DNA of 10,616 nucleotides from Candidatus Desantisbacteria bacterium CG1_02_38_46 (GTDB lineage Bacteria; Desantisbacteria; UBA1551; UBA1559), in contig MNUO01000098.1 of assembly GCA_001871015.1 (NCBI GenBank), forward strand, positions 1-10,616, given 5' to 3'. How positions within the stretch are numbered: position 1 is the stretch's first letter; every line of letters begins with the position of its first letter. The position numbers and the translations under genes were made by a program. The notes beneath the pieces are model-generated. The model was not told the DNA's origin. It made no database searches and saw only the letters and a program-made list of their open reading frames with translations. This document shows positions 1 to 10,616 of the stretch, piece by piece.

Positions 1-142
1 CGGCCACTACATTGGAGCAGAGTAAACTCTGCACTTCCAGAGTGCCTACTTTCGGCCACTACATTGGAGCAGAGTCCACTCTGCACTTCCAGAGTGCCTA
101 CTTTCGGCCACTACATTGGAGCAGAGTAAACTCGGCCACTAC
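1..142. repeat. 52-bp tandem repeat array (2 full copies, 2 truncated)
   Basis: Two full 52-bp units lie at 1-52 and 53-104. They differ only at two adjacent bases (AA at 24-25, CC at 76-77). A third copy is truncated to 28 nt (105-132), and 133-142 repeats the first 10 nt of the unit. Each unit contains the palindrome GCAGAGT-NN-ACTCTGC (17-32 and 69-84). A second possible stem, ACTCTG/CAGAGT, shares the ACTCTG arm, so the two folds exclude each other. The window begins at a unit boundary, so the array probably continues upstream. No unique spacers separate the units, so it is not a CRISPR. Parts of the unit recur in inverse orientation inside aroA. Confidence 0.9.
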
Positions 143-165
143 TGTAGTGGTCGAGCTTGCTCGAC
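131..165 (+). promoter_or_regulatory. Two overlapping, mutually exclusive hairpins ahead of ispD
   Basis: Bases 131-155 form a near-perfect 12-bp stem around T143, with one G-T wobble. Bases 150-165 form a 7-bp stem, GTCGAGC/GCTCGAC, around TT. They share 150-155, so only one can form at a time. The first arises where the tandem array runs into an inverted fragment of itself (143-150 is the complement of unit positions 4-11). The second ends only a few bases before the ispD Shine-Dalgarno site. A role in controlling ispD is inferred from position only; there is no U-tract to make either an obvious intrinsic terminator. Confidence 0.5.
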
Positions 166-875: not shown

Positions 876-1736
876 GTGAAGAAATTTGGGATTGTAGGTA
901 TAATCGGGGTTGGAATGATCGGAGGTTCCATAGGGATGGCCCTGAGGAAAAGGAGGCTGGCAGATAAGGTTATTGGTCTGGGCAGGAATCCAGTTAAACT
1001 GAGAAGGGCCAAAGTTCTTGGCGCAATTGAAGAGGGATATACTGATTTTGATAAAGGTTTGAAAAATGCAGGACTTGTGATAGTTGCTACTCCAGTAGGG
1101 TTGATTCCCGTGATGATAAAACGGGCATTTCCATATCTTGAGGATGGCTCTATTATAACTGATGTGGGCAGCGTCAAATGCCAACTGATAAGAAAGATTG
1201 AAAGATTTCTGCCTCAACGCATTCATTTTGTAGGTGCTCATCCCATTGCAGGACTGGAAACTTTCGGTGTAGAAAACGCTAAACCAACTTTATTTCAAGA
1301 GTCTAACTGTGTTCTAACTCCCACTCCGAGTACCGATGCGAATGCCCTTAGAGTAATTGGGGAAATGTGGAAGGGAATTGGCGCGCGTGTCCTATTGATT
1401 AATCCTGTGCAACACGATGAACTTTTAGCTTTTACAAGTCACCTGCCACATCTTATTGCAGTTTCATTAATCGAGGTGCTGTGCAATCTCAATAAAAAAT
1501 ATAAAAATACTAAGGAATTCATTGGTGGAGGATTCCGTGACACCACAAGAATTGCCTGCGGTTCTCCAATAATGTGGAGAGATATTTGCCTTGCCAATAA
1601 GAAGGAAATTTTGAATGCCTTAAGAAAATTTAAATCCACTACAAATCAAATTGAAGAAATAATTTCCAATGAGAAATGGGATATGCTTTTGAGGAAACTT
1701 ATCAGAGCAAAGAAAGAAAGGGACTCTTTAAAATAA
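876..1736 (+). CDS. tyrA: Prephenate dehydrogenase (TyrA)
   Basis: TyrA oxidatively decarboxylates prephenate to 4-hydroxyphenylpyruvate with NAD(P), committing chorismate to tyrosine. Arogenate specificity cannot be excluded by eye. The 286-residue protein is a stand-alone dehydrogenase with no chorismate mutase or ACT domain. An N-terminal Rossmann fold is marked by GVGMIGGS (11-18). TDVGSVK (95-101), GAHPIAG (120-126, with the family's catalytic-type His at 122), HDELLAFTSHLPH (180-192) and GGFRDTTRIA (218-227) follow, all diagnostic for the family. The start is GTG, directly after the ispD TAA, so translation is probably coupled. The stop shares one base with the aroA ATG (TAATG). Pairing with aroA, which makes the chorismate precursor EPSP, fits an aromatic amino-acid operon. 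No ACT domain means no obvious built-in feedback by tyrosine. Confidence 0.94.
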   Translation: MKKFGIVGIIGVGMIGGSIGMALRKRRLADKVIGLGRNPVKLRRAKVLGAIEEGYTDFDKGLKNAGLVIVATPVGLIPVMIKRAFPYLEDGSIITDVGSVKCQLIRKIERFLPQRIHFVGAHPIAGLETFGVENAKPTLFQESNCVLTPTPSTDANALRVIGEMWKGIGARVLLINPVQHDELLAFTSHLPHLIAVSLIEVLCNLNKKYKNTKEFIGGGFRDTTRIACGSPIMWRDICLANKKEILNALRKFKSTTNQIEEIISNEKWDMLLRKLIRAKKERDSLK

Positions 1737-3817
1737 TGAACATAGCAGTAAAGAAATCTTTTTTAAAGGGGACAATAAATGTTCCGGGAGATAAATCTAT
1801 TTCCCATCGTGCGGTTATGTTAGGTGCAATCGCTAAAGGAATAACGAGGGTAAAAAATTTCCTTAATAGTGAAGACACCCGCAGGACTATTAAGGCGTTC
1901 AGGCAGATGGGTGTAAAAATAAGTGTCATAGAGTCGGAATGTAGTGGCAGAGTGGACTCTGCTTGCAGTGACAGAGAAATTATTATTGAAGGGAAGGGAC
2001 CATACCTTAAAAAACCAAAAGGGAAAATTGATGCGGGTAATTCAGGAACCACCATACGTCTGCTTGCAGGGATTCTTGCAGGGCAACCTTGGACTTCCTG
2101 TATAACAGGGGATAAATCATTGTGCTTCAGGCCTATGCGCAGGATAATCCTTCCTCTGCGGAAGATGGGAGCAAGAATAAAAGCAAGGCAGGATAATTAT
2201 GCTCCTATTTATGTAAGAGGCGGAAATTTGAAACCTTTGTCTTCCCCTCATAAATTAGAGATTGCCAGCGCACAATTAAAATCCTGTGTTCTGCTTGCCC
2301 ATCTTTATACGGGTAAAAAAATCGAATTGATTGAACCCGAGAAGTCCAGAGACCACACAGAGCGGATGCTTAAATATTTCGGAGCAAATATAAAAGTGAA
2401 AGGCCGGCATATAATTTTAAATCCAGATTCATCTCTTTCTGGCAGGGTTATTTCAATCCCGGGCGATATTTCGAGTGCTGCATTTTTTATAATTGGCGCG
2501 ATAATAACGAAAAATAGCGAAGTTTTTATCAAGAAGGTTGGTATTAACCCAACCCGCATGGAAATACTTTCAGTGTTGCAGAAGATGGGCGCAAATGTAA
2601 AATTAGACAATAAATCTATGGAAGGAGGGGAGCCTGTTGCAGATATTTCAATAATTTCTTCTGGATTGAAGGGGATATCAATCCGCGGAAAATCTATTCC
2701 GCTCATAATAGATGAAATTCCTATTCTAACAGTTGCGGCAACACAGGCAAGAGGCAAAACTGTGATTCGAGATGCCATTGAACTGAGGATTAAAGAAACA
2801 GATAGAATTAAGTCAATGGTAACTGAACTGAAAAAGATGGGTGCTGATATAAGGGAGTTGAGAGATGGAATGGTGATTAATGGTCCAACCCAATTAAAAG
2901 GTGCAGACTTGAATAGTTATGCAGACCACCGCACTGCAATGGCACTTGTCATTGCTGGCCTTATTGCCGAAAGTAGGCACTCTGCCAAAAGTAGGCCCTC
3001 TGGAAGGGGAAGTGCCAATGGCAAAACAACTATTCATGATGTAGAATGTATAAATACTTCTTCTCCTGAATTTGCTAAAATATTGAAAAAACTCGGAGCA
3101 GATATTAGTATTGCAAAAGACGACCCGCCTACGCTGAAGCTTCGGCGGGCAGGTGAGCGACGATTAATCATTGCAATCGATGGCCCCGCAGGTTCAGGGA
3201 AGAGCACTGTAGCTAAAGAAATTGCAAAGAAGTCAGGTTATGTTTATCTTGACACAGGGGCTATGTACCGCGCGCTTACTCTAAAAGCTATGAGAAAAAA
3301 AGTGAACTTAAGAAGTCCAAAAGCATTGGTGAATTTGGCAGAAAAGACTAAAATTTCTTTTAAGGGAGAGAAAGTTTTTTTAGACAATAGAGATGTTTCT
3401 GCTGAAATAAGAGCCCCGAGTGTGAGCAATAATACACATTTTATTGCAACTGTGCCAGGGGTTAGAGAAAGAATGAAAATTCTTCAGAGAAAAATGGGTG
3501 ACAGAGGTGGAATAGTTGCAGAAGGAAGAGATATGGGGACAATAATTTTTCCAAACGCACATAGGAAATTTTATCTTGATGCTAAAATTATGGTGCGTGC
3601 AAAGCGTAGATATAAGGAATTAAAGGAGAAAGAGTATTCTGCCACTTTTAAAAAGGTTTTACAGGATACAATTAGAAGGGATAAAAGAGATAGTGAAAGG
3701 GATATAGCACCCCTCAGAAAGGCAAAAGATGCTGTTCTCATAGATACTACAAATATGACAATTAAAGAAGTTGTTCAAAGGTGTCAGGTCTTGACAAATG
3801 ACAAATATCAGGACTAA
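1736..3817 (+). CDS. aroA-cmk: Fusion of EPSP synthase (AroA) and cytidylate kinase (Cmk)
   Basis: A single 693-residue frame carries two enzymes. Residues 1-461 are 3-phosphoshikimate 1-carboxyvinyltransferase: PGDKSISHR (17-25), DAGNSGTTIR (99-108), GDKSLCFRPM (125-134), SAQLKS (178-183), the catalytic-type Asp in IIDEIP (D327), KETDR (353-357) and DHRTAM (397-402). Residues 477-693 are CMP kinase: P-loop GPAGSGKST (483-491), YLDTGAMYRALT (504-515), EGRDMGTIIFP (596-606) and RDKRDSERDIAPLRKA (648-663). AroA makes EPSP for chorismate; Cmk phosphorylates CMP and dCMP. ATG 1736 overlaps the tyrA stop (TAATG); the frame also opens at 1676, but inside tyrA. Oddities: repeat-derived in-frame segments at about residues 66-80 and 411-428, a palindrome-encoded linker (462-476), and a C-terminus (about 683-693) lying in a repeat element. 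AroA-Cmk bifunctional proteins are also annotated in Burkholderiales, so the architecture is not unique; the linker here looks distinctive. Confidence 0.94.
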   Translation: MNIAVKKSFLKGTINVPGDKSISHRAVMLGAIAKGITRVKNFLNSEDTRRTIKAFRQMGVKISVIESECSGRVDSACSDREIIIEGKGPYLKKPKGKIDAGNSGTTIRLLAGILAGQPWTSCITGDKSLCFRPMRRIILPLRKMGARIKARQDNYAPIYVRGGNLKPLSSPHKLEIASAQLKSCVLLAHLYTGKKIELIEPEKSRDHTERMLKYFGANIKVKGRHIILNPDSSLSGRVISIPGDISSAAFFIIGAIITKNSEVFIKKVGINPTRMEILSVLQKMGANVKLDNKSMEGGEPVADISIISSGLKGISIRGKSIPLIIDEIPILTVAATQARGKTVIRDAIELRIKETDRIKSMVTELKKMGADIRELRDGMVINGPTQLKGADLNSYADHRTAMALVIAGLIAESRHSAKSRPSGRGSANGKTTIHDVECINTSSPEFAKILKKLGADISIAKDDPPTLKLRRAGERRLIIAIDGPAGSGKSTVAKEIAKKSGYVYLDTGAMYRALTLKAMRKKVNLRSPKALVNLAEKTKISFKGEKVFLDNRDVSAEIRAPSVSNNTHFIATVPGVRERMKILQRKMGDRGGIVAEGRDMGTIIFPNAHRKFYLDAKIMVRAKRRYKELKEKEYSATFKKVLQDTIRRDKRDSERDIAPLRKAKDAVLIDTTNMTIKEVVQRCQVLTNDKYQD
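1937..1962 (-). repeat. Relic of the 52-bp repeat inside aroA (site 1)
   Basis: Bases 1946-1962 match exactly, in reverse complement, bases 68-84 of array copy 2 (17 nt, including the GCAGAGTGGACTCTGC palindrome). Bases 1937-1947 match the complement of unit positions 3-13. The two pieces overlap in the order expected of an inverted array that lost about 22 nt between them. The segment is read in frame and encodes ECSGRVDSA, in a stretch (about residues 66-80) that has no clear counterpart in typical EPSP synthases as I recall them. Confidence 0.75.
2966..3018 (-). repeat. Relic of the 52-bp repeat inside aroA (site 2), internally duplicated
   Basis: Bases 2966-2983 are an exact 18-nt reverse-complement match to array positions 39-56 (and 91-108). 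Bases 2984-3001 are a second copy with two mismatches, followed by GGAAG, which continues the repeat's own order. The two 18-nt copies are read in frame as AESRHS and AKSRPS (residues 411-422), then GRGSAN before the conserved C-terminal AroA sequence resumes at about 429. The insertion falls after the DHRTAM...LIAGLI core, so it would sit in a loop near the end of the AroA domain. Confidence 0.8.
3124..3149. repeat. GC-rich palindrome encoding the AroA-Cmk linker
   Basis: CCCGCC (3124-3129) pairs with GGCGGG (3144-3149), and GAAGCTTC (3136-3143) is itself a palindrome. An alternative 8-bp fold, CGCTGAAG/CTTCGGCG, occupies 3132-3147. The element is markedly more GC-rich than the flanking coding DNA. 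It encodes the PPTLKLRRA part of the linker, exactly between the natural end of AroA (GADISIAK) and the start of Cmk (LIIAIDGPAGSGKS). Confidence 0.75.
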
Positions 3818-3957
3818 AGTCCTGAGTTGACAAATGACAAATATCAGGACTAAAGTCCTGAGTTACAAGTTGTTCAAATATCAGGACTAAAGTCCCAAGT
3901 TACAAGTTGTTCAAATATCAGGACTAAAGTCCCAAGTTACATGTCAAGACCTGACAC
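3781..3957. repeat. 177-bp element with 16-bp perfect terminal inverted repeats
   Basis: GTGTCAGGTCTTGACA (3781-3796) and its exact reverse complement TGTCAAGACCTGACAC (3942-3957) bound a 145-bp interior. The interior is almost wholly tandem repeat with no coding capacity of its own. The layout recalls a non-autonomous miniature element (MITE or REPIN-like), but no transposase is present in the window and no clear target-site duplication is visible. The left end lies within the cmk coding region and encodes CQVLT. The right end stops 12 bp before the plsC ATG. Confidence 0.7.
3791..3936. repeat. Four tandem 36/37-bp units (two subtypes)
   Basis: Units at 3791-3826 and 3827-3862 are identical 36-mers beginning TTGACAAATGACAAATATCA. 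Units at 3863-3899 and 3900-3936 are identical 37-mers in which the first half is replaced by TTACAAGTTGTTCAAATATC. All share ATATCAGGACTAAAGTCC. The 36-mers end in a palindromic core CAGGAC-TAAA-GTCCTG; in the 37-mers this core is broken (GTCCCAAG). The 12-nt AAGTTGTTCAAA of the second subtype also occurs in the true cmk coding sequence at 3768-3779, suggesting that the unit captured host sequence. The cmk stop codon (3815-3817) lies in the first unit. Confidence 0.9.
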
Positions 3958-3969
3958 CACGGATTTAAA

Positions 3970-9114: not shown

Positions 9115-9399
9115 ATGAAAAAGCAATTCAGCAAATTCATTTGGGATGCCAGAAAAGAGCGAGACAATATTTCAAAACATAAGATTGATTTCACCAAGGC
9201 ATTAAGAGTATTTTTGGACCCGAAAAGAAAAATTTTTATTGATTCCAAACATAGCGAAAAGGAAGAAAGATATTTCTGTATTGGAAAAGTAGATGATAAG
9301 ATTGTCACTGTAAGATTTACATACCGTAGCAATAAAATCAGAATAATAGGTGCAGGATACTGGAGAAAAGGGGGAAAGTATTATGAAGAAAAGAGTTAG
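9115..9399 (+). CDS. brnT: BrnT family toxin (DUF497)
   Basis: BrnT toxins are small RelE-fold ribonucleases that inhibit translation until held by a cognate antitoxin. The 94-residue product follows the family pattern: FIWDARKERDNISKHKIDFTKALRVFLDP (8-36), then DSKHSEKEERYFCIGKVDDKIVTVRFTYR (43-71), then the C-terminal strand IRIIGAGYWRKGGKYYEE (75-92). The ending GAGYWRKG replaces the commoner SARxAxxxE ending of BrnT, suggesting a divergent subgroup. ATG 9115 is the first possible start after a consensus promoter, and no ribosome site precedes it. It overlaps the antitoxin gene by 17 nt, the toxin-first order usual for BrnT systems. Strand and compactness suggest an inserted accessory module after the housekeeping run. 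Confidence 0.87.
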   Translation: MKKQFSKFIWDARKERDNISKHKIDFTKALRVFLDPKRKIFIDSKHSEKEERYFCIGKVDDKIVTVRFTYRSNKIRIIGAGYWRKGGKYYEEKS

Positions 9400-9622
9400 T
9401 TTAGATATGCCTATTGGGAAATTAACTAGGGTGGATGATTTTTTACCATCTCCTAAAGAGTTAATGGCGTCTGAAAAAAAAGTAAAGGTTACACTGTATT
9501 TAAAAAAATCAAATGTAGAAACGCTTAAAAACACTGCAAAACAATCCCACACAAAGTACCAGAGGATTATCCGAGAATTAGTGGGTAGATACGTGGAACA
9601 CTATTCACACGTTTCCGGTTGA
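9383..9622 (+). CDS. CopG-type ribbon-helix-helix antitoxin partner of BrnT
   Basis: The 79-residue product begins with a leader (RVSLDMPIGKLTRVDDFLPSPKELM, 4-28) of the type I associate with CopG-family antitoxins paired with DUF497 toxins. A probable ribbon strand KVKVTLYLK (33-41) and two helices with the YQRIIRELVGRYVEHY segment (59-74) follow. This matches a ribbon-helix-helix DNA-binding dimer that neutralises the toxin and represses the operon. ATG 9383 is chosen over the in-frame ATG at 9350 because GGGGG (9370-9374) lies 8 nt upstream and the product then begins MKKRVSLDMP. The start lies inside brnT (17-nt overlap), so synthesis of the two proteins is coupled. It differs from classical BrnA in length of leader, so no symbol is given. 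Confidence 0.82.
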   Translation: MKKRVSLDMPIGKLTRVDDFLPSPKELMASEKKVKVTLYLKKSNVETLKNTAKQSHTKYQRIIRELVGRYVEHYSHVSG

Positions 9623-9720: not shown

Positions 9721-10616
9721 ATGAAGAAATTTTTTACTGTTTTGATTGTACCGAATAACCAGAGAAAAATACTCAATCTCAAAATACCTCATTGGTTAAA
9801 TAACTCCTTTATTGTTCTTATGGGGATATTGGTTCTTGCCACATTTATTTTTATAAAAAACCACAAGGATTTGAAAGAAGAAGTGGTAGATTTACGCTTT
9901 AAAGAAGAATTGTACAGGGAGCAGACTCAAAAAATTATTTATTTTTCCAATGAGGTTGAGAGTTTGCGCAAAGAAGTTCAGGAATTGAGAAACCTCGGGA
10001 CGAGTGTAAAAGGGTTGTCGAAAAAATTAAAACAGAGCGCGATTCCTTCTGCACCAAATCCAATTGCATCTTCGCAAGCATCAAAGAATCTTGGCCAGGG
10101 TGGCCCTGATAGAAATTTAGATATATCTTCACCGCTTCCTGCCGAGAAACTGAATAAGGATATAGATACATTAAAAAAAGAAATAAATCAACAGAAAAAT
10201 TTGCTGCAGAATTTAAGTAAATACCTGCAAACGCAACTTTCTGTTGTCAGAATTACGCCAAACCGCTGGCCACTTCGTGGATGGATTACATCACGTTTTG
10301 GTTGGAGGCGACTACATGGAGTAAGAGAGTTTCATTCGGGTATCGACATTGCTGCTTTAGAGGGTACATCCATCCGTGCTGCTGCTGATGGAACTGTAGA
10401 ATTCAGTGGCTGGAATGCAGGATATGGAAAGTTGGTTATAATTAACCATGGAAGAGGAATTTCCACTTATTATGGACATAACTCTTCCAATCTGGTAAGT
10501 GCAGGTCAATTTGTAAAAAAAGGTACAATTATTGCCTGTGTTGGAAGCACAGGAAGAACTACTGGTTCCCATCTTCATTACGAAATCAGGGTCAACGGCA
10601 ATCCTGTAAATCCATT
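9721..10616 (+). CDS. M23 family metallopeptidase, membrane-anchored (3' partial)
   Basis: The frame is open from ATG 9721 to the window end (298 complete codons) with no stop, so the gene is cut by the boundary. A short cytoplasmic N-terminus (MKKFFTVLIVPNNQRKILNL) leads to one transmembrane helix (about 29-46). A charged, probably coiled-coil stalk (about 48-105 and 141-172) and a Ser/Pro/Asn-rich break (106-140) follow, then a LytM/M23 domain (about 183-298). The zinc-site residues are present: H205 and D209 in HSGIDIA, and H284-L-H286 in TGSHLHYEI, so it should be an active peptidoglycan endopeptidase rather than an EnvC-like degenerate regulator. GAGGGAG (9708-9714) serves as ribosome site. 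Single-pass M23 proteins with a coiled-coil stalk commonly work in cell-wall remodelling and division in the periplasm; the actual substrate is unknown. Confidence 0.9.
   Translation, partial: MKKFFTVLIVPNNQRKILNLKIPHWLNNSFIVLMGILVLATFIFIKNHKDLKEEVVDLRFKEELYREQTQKIIYFSNEVESLRKEVQELRNLGTSVKGLSKKLKQSAIPSAPNPIASSQASKNLGQGGPDRNLDISSPLPAEKLNKDIDTLKKEINQQKNLLQNLSKYLQTQLSVVRITPNRWPLRGWITSRFGWRRLHGVREFHSGIDIAALEGTSIRAAADGTVEFSGWNAGYGKLVIINHGRGISTYYGHNSSNLVSAGQFVKKGTIIACVGSTGRTTGSHLHYEIRVNGNPVNP

Follow-up and report, generated by a model that had tools for sequence, protein, structure and literature searches.

What kind of DNA is read in frame inside aroA in this window, and how did it come to lie there? 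The window, here meaning the whole 10,616-nt stretch analysed, is contig C100 of an assembly (G000) of 1.73 Mb in 133 contigs, 88% complete. A preliminary description had noticed that the 52-bp unit repeated in tandem upstream of ispD recurs in inverse orientation at 1937-1962 and 2966-3001, and both matches were found by sequence comparison. At site 1, 11 nt of the array unit were matched at 1938-1948 and 17 nt exactly at 1947-1963; at site 2, 19 nt were exact at 2966-2984 and a 23-nt copy (91%) lay at 2984-3006. The reading frame stays open through both, which add peptide: CSGRVDSA at site 1 and 16 amino acids at site 2. The features concerned are as follows.

1736-3817, plus strand: in-frame aroA-cmk fusion ORF with both inserts inside (ORF and domain reading).
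1940-1963, plus strand: site 1, family-2 element TGTAGTG-GCAGAGT-GG-ACTCTGC-T (exact genome-search match at 1941-1961; homologues without the insert).
1964-1976, plus strand: site 1, second family-2 copy, truncated and decayed (TGCAGTGACAGAG versus TGTAGTGGCAGAG, 2 mismatches).
2967-3014, plus strand: site 2, double nested family-1 insert, 48 nt, read as the 16 amino acids AESRHSAKSRPSGRGS (homologue alignment and arm pairing).
2985-3008, plus strand: site 2, inner family-1 element CCAAAAGTAGGCCCTCTGGAAGGG, in the loop of the outer element (exact genome-search match and arm pairing).
1-133, minus strand: 52-bp composite, 2.6 tandem copies, upstream of ispD; unit TGTAGTGG[family 1]CAGAGTNNACTCTGC-TCCAA (repeat search).
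32-55, minus strand: family-1 24-nt hairpin within a family-2 element, composite unit 1 (exact match; flanks GTAGTGG^CAGAGTTTACTCTG).
84-107, minus strand: family-1 24-nt hairpin within a family-2 element, composite unit 2 (genome search and flank comparison).
122-142, minus strand: family-2 copy GTAGTGGCCGAGTTTACTCTG, 1 mismatch (genome search).
144-165, plus strand: GTAGTG-GTCGAGC-TT-GCTCGAC, a family-2 stem variant (sequence; counted among the 100 hairpins below).

The sites had been taken for fragments of one 52-bp unit, but they belong to two independent hairpin families, and the 52-bp unit is itself a composite in which a family-1 element sits within family 2. Family 1 (CCRAAA-GTAG-GCNCT-CTGGA-AGNG) measures 24 nt and has a 5-bp stem; family 2 (GTAGTG-GCAGAGT-NN-ACTCTGC) consists of GTAGTG, a 7-bp stem and a 2-nt loop. 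Site 1 is family 2 alone, its core GTAGTGGCAGAGTGGACTCTG (1941-1961) being read as the peptide given above, and site 2 consists only of family 1. The partial second copy at site 1 lies in the same 24-nt tandem phase as an array in the ispE gene (L129). A single 52-bp mobile unit leaving fragments in aroA was rejected because its halves are each found alone elsewhere; the position of the 24-mer, between GTAGTGG and CAGAG, also speaks against it. Elsewhere in the window, four tandem 36-37-nt copies of a GGACTAAAGTCC hairpin lie between inverted ends GGTGTCAGGTCTTGACA / TGTCAAGACCTGACACC at 3780-3958, an arrangement that is MITE-like, and two small adjoining ORFs at 9115-9622 resemble a BrnT/BrnA-type toxin-antitoxin pair.

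Both families are dispersed. When the genome was searched with the 24-mer CCRAAAGTAGGCNCTCTGGAAGNG, allowing up to 3 mismatches, 48 places were found, against none for the reversed control. The family-2 21-mer GTAGTGGCAGAGTNNACTCTG gave 84 and 85 matches on the two strands (169, strand-counted), again with a control of 0. Chance is therefore ruled out as the origin of the aroA inserts, and the absence of the repeat from the rest of the genome, which the preliminary description had named as an argument against its own proposal, was not found. The variable stem bases of family 1 were complementary in 48/48 sites (A-T, T-A or C-G), so that one stem pair covaries; a separate arm-pairing comparison found 49 of 50 arm pairs complementary.

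The stretches inspected around matches form a biased sample, and L142-L149 (160 kb of longer contigs) alone were picked regardless of matches to either family. One hundred family-2-type hairpins were counted in about 411 kb, 76 with a TT loop and 11 with a TC loop; their stems were mostly of 7 bp, in more than 10 variants. Stems behind the GTAG[TC]G head include GTCGAGC, GTCGAGT, GCAGAGC, GCAGACC and GTGCGAT, and unit sizes of these elements range over 17-30 nt. Within the 160-kb sample, which is 85% coding and bears on whether the elements are mostly extragenic as GTAG REPs are, six exact-repeat hairpins of the GTAG families lay well inside ORFs, and a TCAGGACTAAAGTCCTGA hairpin repeat had 19 copies, none of them in ORFs. 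That GTAG is the top hairpin-tagging tetramer was considered and rejected, other hairpin repeats dominating the unbiased count. A 17-nt tandem hairpin, CCRAGTAGGTCTTRCGA (L096 minus strand 1905-1990, L144 minus strand 10464-10512), has its 5' end and insertion bond in common with family 1, and a length that is not a multiple of 3.

Comparison of AroA with its homologues located the added residues. By local alignment, the 16 residues of site 2 were present in 0 of 32 homologues, and nearly all of them lacked the 13 or so residues that site 1 adds, the exceptions having about ten unrelated residues in one case and about five in another. The claim that relatives do without the inserts thus stood for these homologues and, at site 1, for solved structures, since the PDB chains lack that insert; at site 2 the two best PDB alignments stop. 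An AlphaFold2 model, built on a four-sequence alignment (mean pLDDT 80), drops under a pLDDT of 50 in two stretches: residues 68-78, flanked by strands 61-65 and 81-87, and residues 415-428, flanked by helix 398-413 and strand 431-433. The loop location proposed earlier thus agrees with the predicted structure. The contig search for AroA yielded four relatives, from other groups. Over 1736-3160 of the window, AroA matched distant groups at up to about 53%, versus 34% for the best AroA-like match in G001, a genome of the same order, which suggests that the gene may have been exchanged. Translation passes from aroA to cmk without a stop via CCCGCCTACGCTGAAGCTTCGGCGGG, a 26-nt palindrome in the 3115-3160 segment; this linker hairpin is single copy, with no dispersal in 411 kb of the genome, and the corresponding residues 461-475 are of low confidence in the model.

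How were the two inserts built? At site 2 the arms follow the order left A, left C, right G, right T, and the pairing is nested in 2/2 cases versus parallel in 0/2. Because the arm bases pair in nested order only, site 2 is a nested insertion, the outer element (arms 2967-2984 and 3009-3014) enclosing the inner one; the insert takes in the right arms GAAGGG GAAGTG and is therefore longer than the 2966-3001 first reported. A duplication here and a deletion at site 1 had been proposed, but nesting and the independence of the two families account for the sites instead. An array on C75 and the copy in a Ca-ATPase gene likewise paired in nested order only, making three informative arrays in all. 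At C58 (L087), the nested pair of the Ca-ATPase gene is a 48-mer identical to that in aroA, and the gene for MobA has five 18-nt left arms followed by five 6-nt right arms, that is 120 nt of nested family-1 elements.

The cleanest evidence of insertion in this material came from a third hairpin family, CCCCCC-TGCTTTCTTG^CGAAAGCA-..GGGGGG, with the loop GCTTTCT(T/G)(G/A)^CGAAAGC. L115 and L089 have this loop without any insert. Elsewhere it is filled by 17 nt (CCGAGTAGGTCTTRCGA) in L098 and L105, by 24 nt in L085 and L086, by 41 nt (17+24) in L088 and by 120 nt (5x24) in L108. All inserts sit at one bond, without target duplication. Family 1 inserts as a unit of exactly 24 nt, at defined bonds that often belong to hairpin loops; its own loop and family 2 are among the targets. 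For 19 targets outside the GTAG families, the joined flanks folded with a mean of -3.0 kcal/mol versus -1.4 at control sites whose junction is preceded by G; this hairpin preference is suggestive only, several of the 19 targets belonging to one repeat family and so not being independent.

Nested and tandem copies could instead arise locally, when the polymerase slips or changes template at hairpins, and not by transposition, with another route needed for rare dispersal only. The tandem 24-nt runs, seven in IspE and five nested in MobA, do resemble local expansion, and no transposase flanked by these hairpins was found. We regard this explanation as unlikely, since exact 24-nt and 17-nt units occupy one bond of an unrelated hairpin that is also seen empty, one 48-nt nested pair is shared by two unrelated genes (aroA and the Ca-ATPase gene), and about 40 distinct flanks were seen for family 1.

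Insertion of these dispersed repeats into coding DNA, where they are read in frame, extends to many core genes. Extra residues relative to solved homologues coincide with an element in DapL, LeuC, IspE, Ca-ATPase, Alr, IspG and ASD. The ispE gene (L129:1799-2866) has taken up seven copies of a 24-nt hairpin in frame, which lengthen the protein by about 56 residues in the interval from its first strands to the GHMP motif. The PNP insert falls upstream of the PDB-matched residues, but within the NCBIfam match. Family profiles placed more copies in or between domains of LarA, TopA, the CCA-adding enzyme, MobA, GlmU-GlmM, EtfA and AddA. The coding inserts add about 8-56 residues each, in loops. 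Gene fusions besides aroA-cmk are several in this genome, among them coaE and dapL in one ORF (L086:1817-3676) and GlmU-like and GlmM-like genes (L109).

Tandem family-2 spacing differed inside and outside ORFs. Inside, it was 24 or 30 nt, a multiple of 3 in 11/11 cases; outside, many lengths occurred and 19/41 were multiples of 3 (a hand calculation gave about 0.001 for the one-sided Fisher test, with neighbours that are not fully independent). We count this as support for selection on frame in the ORFs. Intact frames and conserved motifs suggest that the decorated enzymes have probably kept their function, and for AroA the elements are most likely selfish and near-neutral.

Recurring peptides such as AESRHS.., CSGRVYSA, SRVNSATT and RVPTFG in different proteins (a peptide of the insert type is AESRHSAKSRPSGR) might be taken to mean that conserved functional protein parts are at work and that the likeness of the DNA is secondary. 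Depending on the gene, element DNA is translated from one strand or the other and in any of several frames, giving different peptides, and the peptide is therefore not the conserved thing. Intergenic copies occur too, and homologues lack the inserts; in particular, the peptides are not conserved among AroA homologues without the DNA repeat, an outcome that the preliminary description had listed as telling against it. A functional origin of this kind is thus extremely improbable.

Comparison within the order and the phylum drew on one further genome, G001, which represents a different family of that order. Its single family-1 match proved in context to be a nested pair, CCGAAAGCAGGCACTCTG[CCGAAATTAGGCCCTTTGGAAGGG]GAAGTG, which keeps the frame of a ParE/RelE-like gene, itself intact at 106 codons; the peptide there reads AESRHSAEIRPFGRGS (compare AESRHSAKSRPSGRGS in AroA). 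Among the 192 genomes searched, the 190 beyond G000 and G001 gave background at control level only, and no copy of the element was found in viral contigs or plasmids. The second genome also bears on whether the inserts could be an artefact of assembly or binning, an idea to which the 133 contigs and the repeats at several contig ends lend some colour. It is scarcely credible, given that frames are open through the inserts, that both flanks match the family, that a nested in-frame pair recurs in G001 and that spacing in ORFs obeys the frame.

We consider it likely that the aroA inserts are copies of two very small, non-autonomous, GTAG-tagged families of dispersed hairpins, which would be moved as single-stranded hairpins by a Y1-type enzyme. 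An HUH/Y1 (RAYT/IS200-like) transposase may recognise the GTAG tag and the stem-loop, and would paste the hairpins into single-stranded hairpin loops; many gene insertions would be tolerated and selection would clear the rest. For family 1, this tolerance would follow from a length of 24 nt and from the lack of stops in five of the six frames. More tentatively, and with the balance of our judgement somewhat against it, these may be 17-24-nt mobile hairpins that prefer the loop of another hairpin, their own included, as target. They would grow like nested dolls, family 1 in frame-keeping steps of 24 nt, and would have given many core enzymes of one bacterial lineage new loops.

RAYTs are thought to move GTAG REPs; these enzymes bind GTAG hairpins in single-stranded form and cleave at CT or CA (PMC8266576). 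Family-1 junctions fell after G in 37 of 40 cases, which shows a choice of site, though one that departs from the CT rule; family-2 stems were followed by T in 53/100. The genome has three Y1_Tnp matches, none tied to the elements. The Y1 gene on C109 (L123:2440-3475, the protein being encoded at 2487-3470) is intact, with 327 codons encoding Y1_Tnp and a DnaA-type C-terminal domain, and its flanks, AGGGTCAGACCTCAAC...GAGGTCTGACCCT, form a terminal inverted repeat of another kind than the GTAG hairpins. That on C60 (L122:2465-3200) has an early in-frame stop and GGGGACG-type inverted repeats (AAAAAGGGGACG), and the third match is cut by a contig end. No RAYT gene flanked by GTAG hairpins, the arrangement of a REPtron, was found, two fully readable Y1 genes having been checked in a genome 88% complete, whose absent part may contain one. 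The C109 and C60 genes resemble the tyrosine transposases flanked by terminal inverted repeats that are described in PMC3733652. If loop-directed insertion is true, these elements would rank with the smallest mobile units known and would offer a test system for the movement of REP-like DNA.

Insertions of 8-40 residues are found in proteins, and their source is usually untraceable. Here, source DNA, empty sites and nested growth are visible in one genome, so that one can follow, case by case, how protein loops arose from selfish DNA.

The closest known kind is the GTAG-REP superfamily. As defined in PMC3733652, GTAG REPs have an unpaired GTAG beside a 5-13 bp stem, loops that are often TY, and covarying stems; several families occur per genome, in clusters, and some ORF copies add 20-30 or more residues. 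Copies inside ORFs were catalogued in 2013, most of them in Opitutus terrae (Di Nocera et al., PMC3733652). Family 2, with unpaired GTAG at the end of the palindrome, the same stem, loop and covariation, and dispersal in high copy number, fits this published definition, so that the sequence, which had at first seemed of an unrecognised kind, can be assigned. Family 1 (AAA-GTAG-GCNCT-CTGGA-AGNGC) likewise joins GTAG to a hairpin with compensatory stem changes. The likeness thus covers the tag, the stems, the loops, the multiple clustered families and the intragenic copies. The present elements depart from GTAG REPs in that family-1 units, 24 nt in length and with a stem of 5 bp, nest in their own loops, in that numerous core metabolic enzymes carry inserts in a 1.7-Mb genome, and in that a GTAG-flanked RAYT is missing from what was searched; dimers and clusters, not hairpins in hairpin loops, are what the accessible part of PMC3733652 describes. 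The RAYT/TnpA-REP systems (REPtron, REPIN) are alike in that they were proposed to mobilise GTAG REPs and that Y1 genes are present here; they differ in that the Y1 genes here have terminal inverted repeats in place of GTAG hairpins and that family-1 junctions show no CT cut site.

Behaviour like that of the Rickettsia palindromic elements (RPEs) had been pointed out at the start, and it does hold: as with RPEs and their Wolbachia counterparts, dispersed palindromes missing in relatives are read in frame in loops of conserved genes with the ORF kept, apparently tolerated. That the elements actually are of this type is very improbable. RPEs in Rickettsia genes, known earlier, are longer (105-146 bp; PMC2229807) than the 17-30 nt seen here, have long terminal inverted repeats not found here, and differ in sequence and lineage, family 1 occurring in G000 and G001 only, of the 192 genomes searched; RPE-4 and RPE-6 are classed as CGTC repeats in PMC3733652, whereas GTAG is the tag here. 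REP-type hairpins nested in each other's loops were not found described in the open-licence literature. Mobile units of tens of nt that lie within other repeats or hairpins are known as the cyanobacterial SDRs of Elhai and as mitochondrial double-hairpin or repetitive hairpin elements, to which the present ones are likened by description only. Set beside all of these, the self-nesting 24-nt element and the load in core genes look new.
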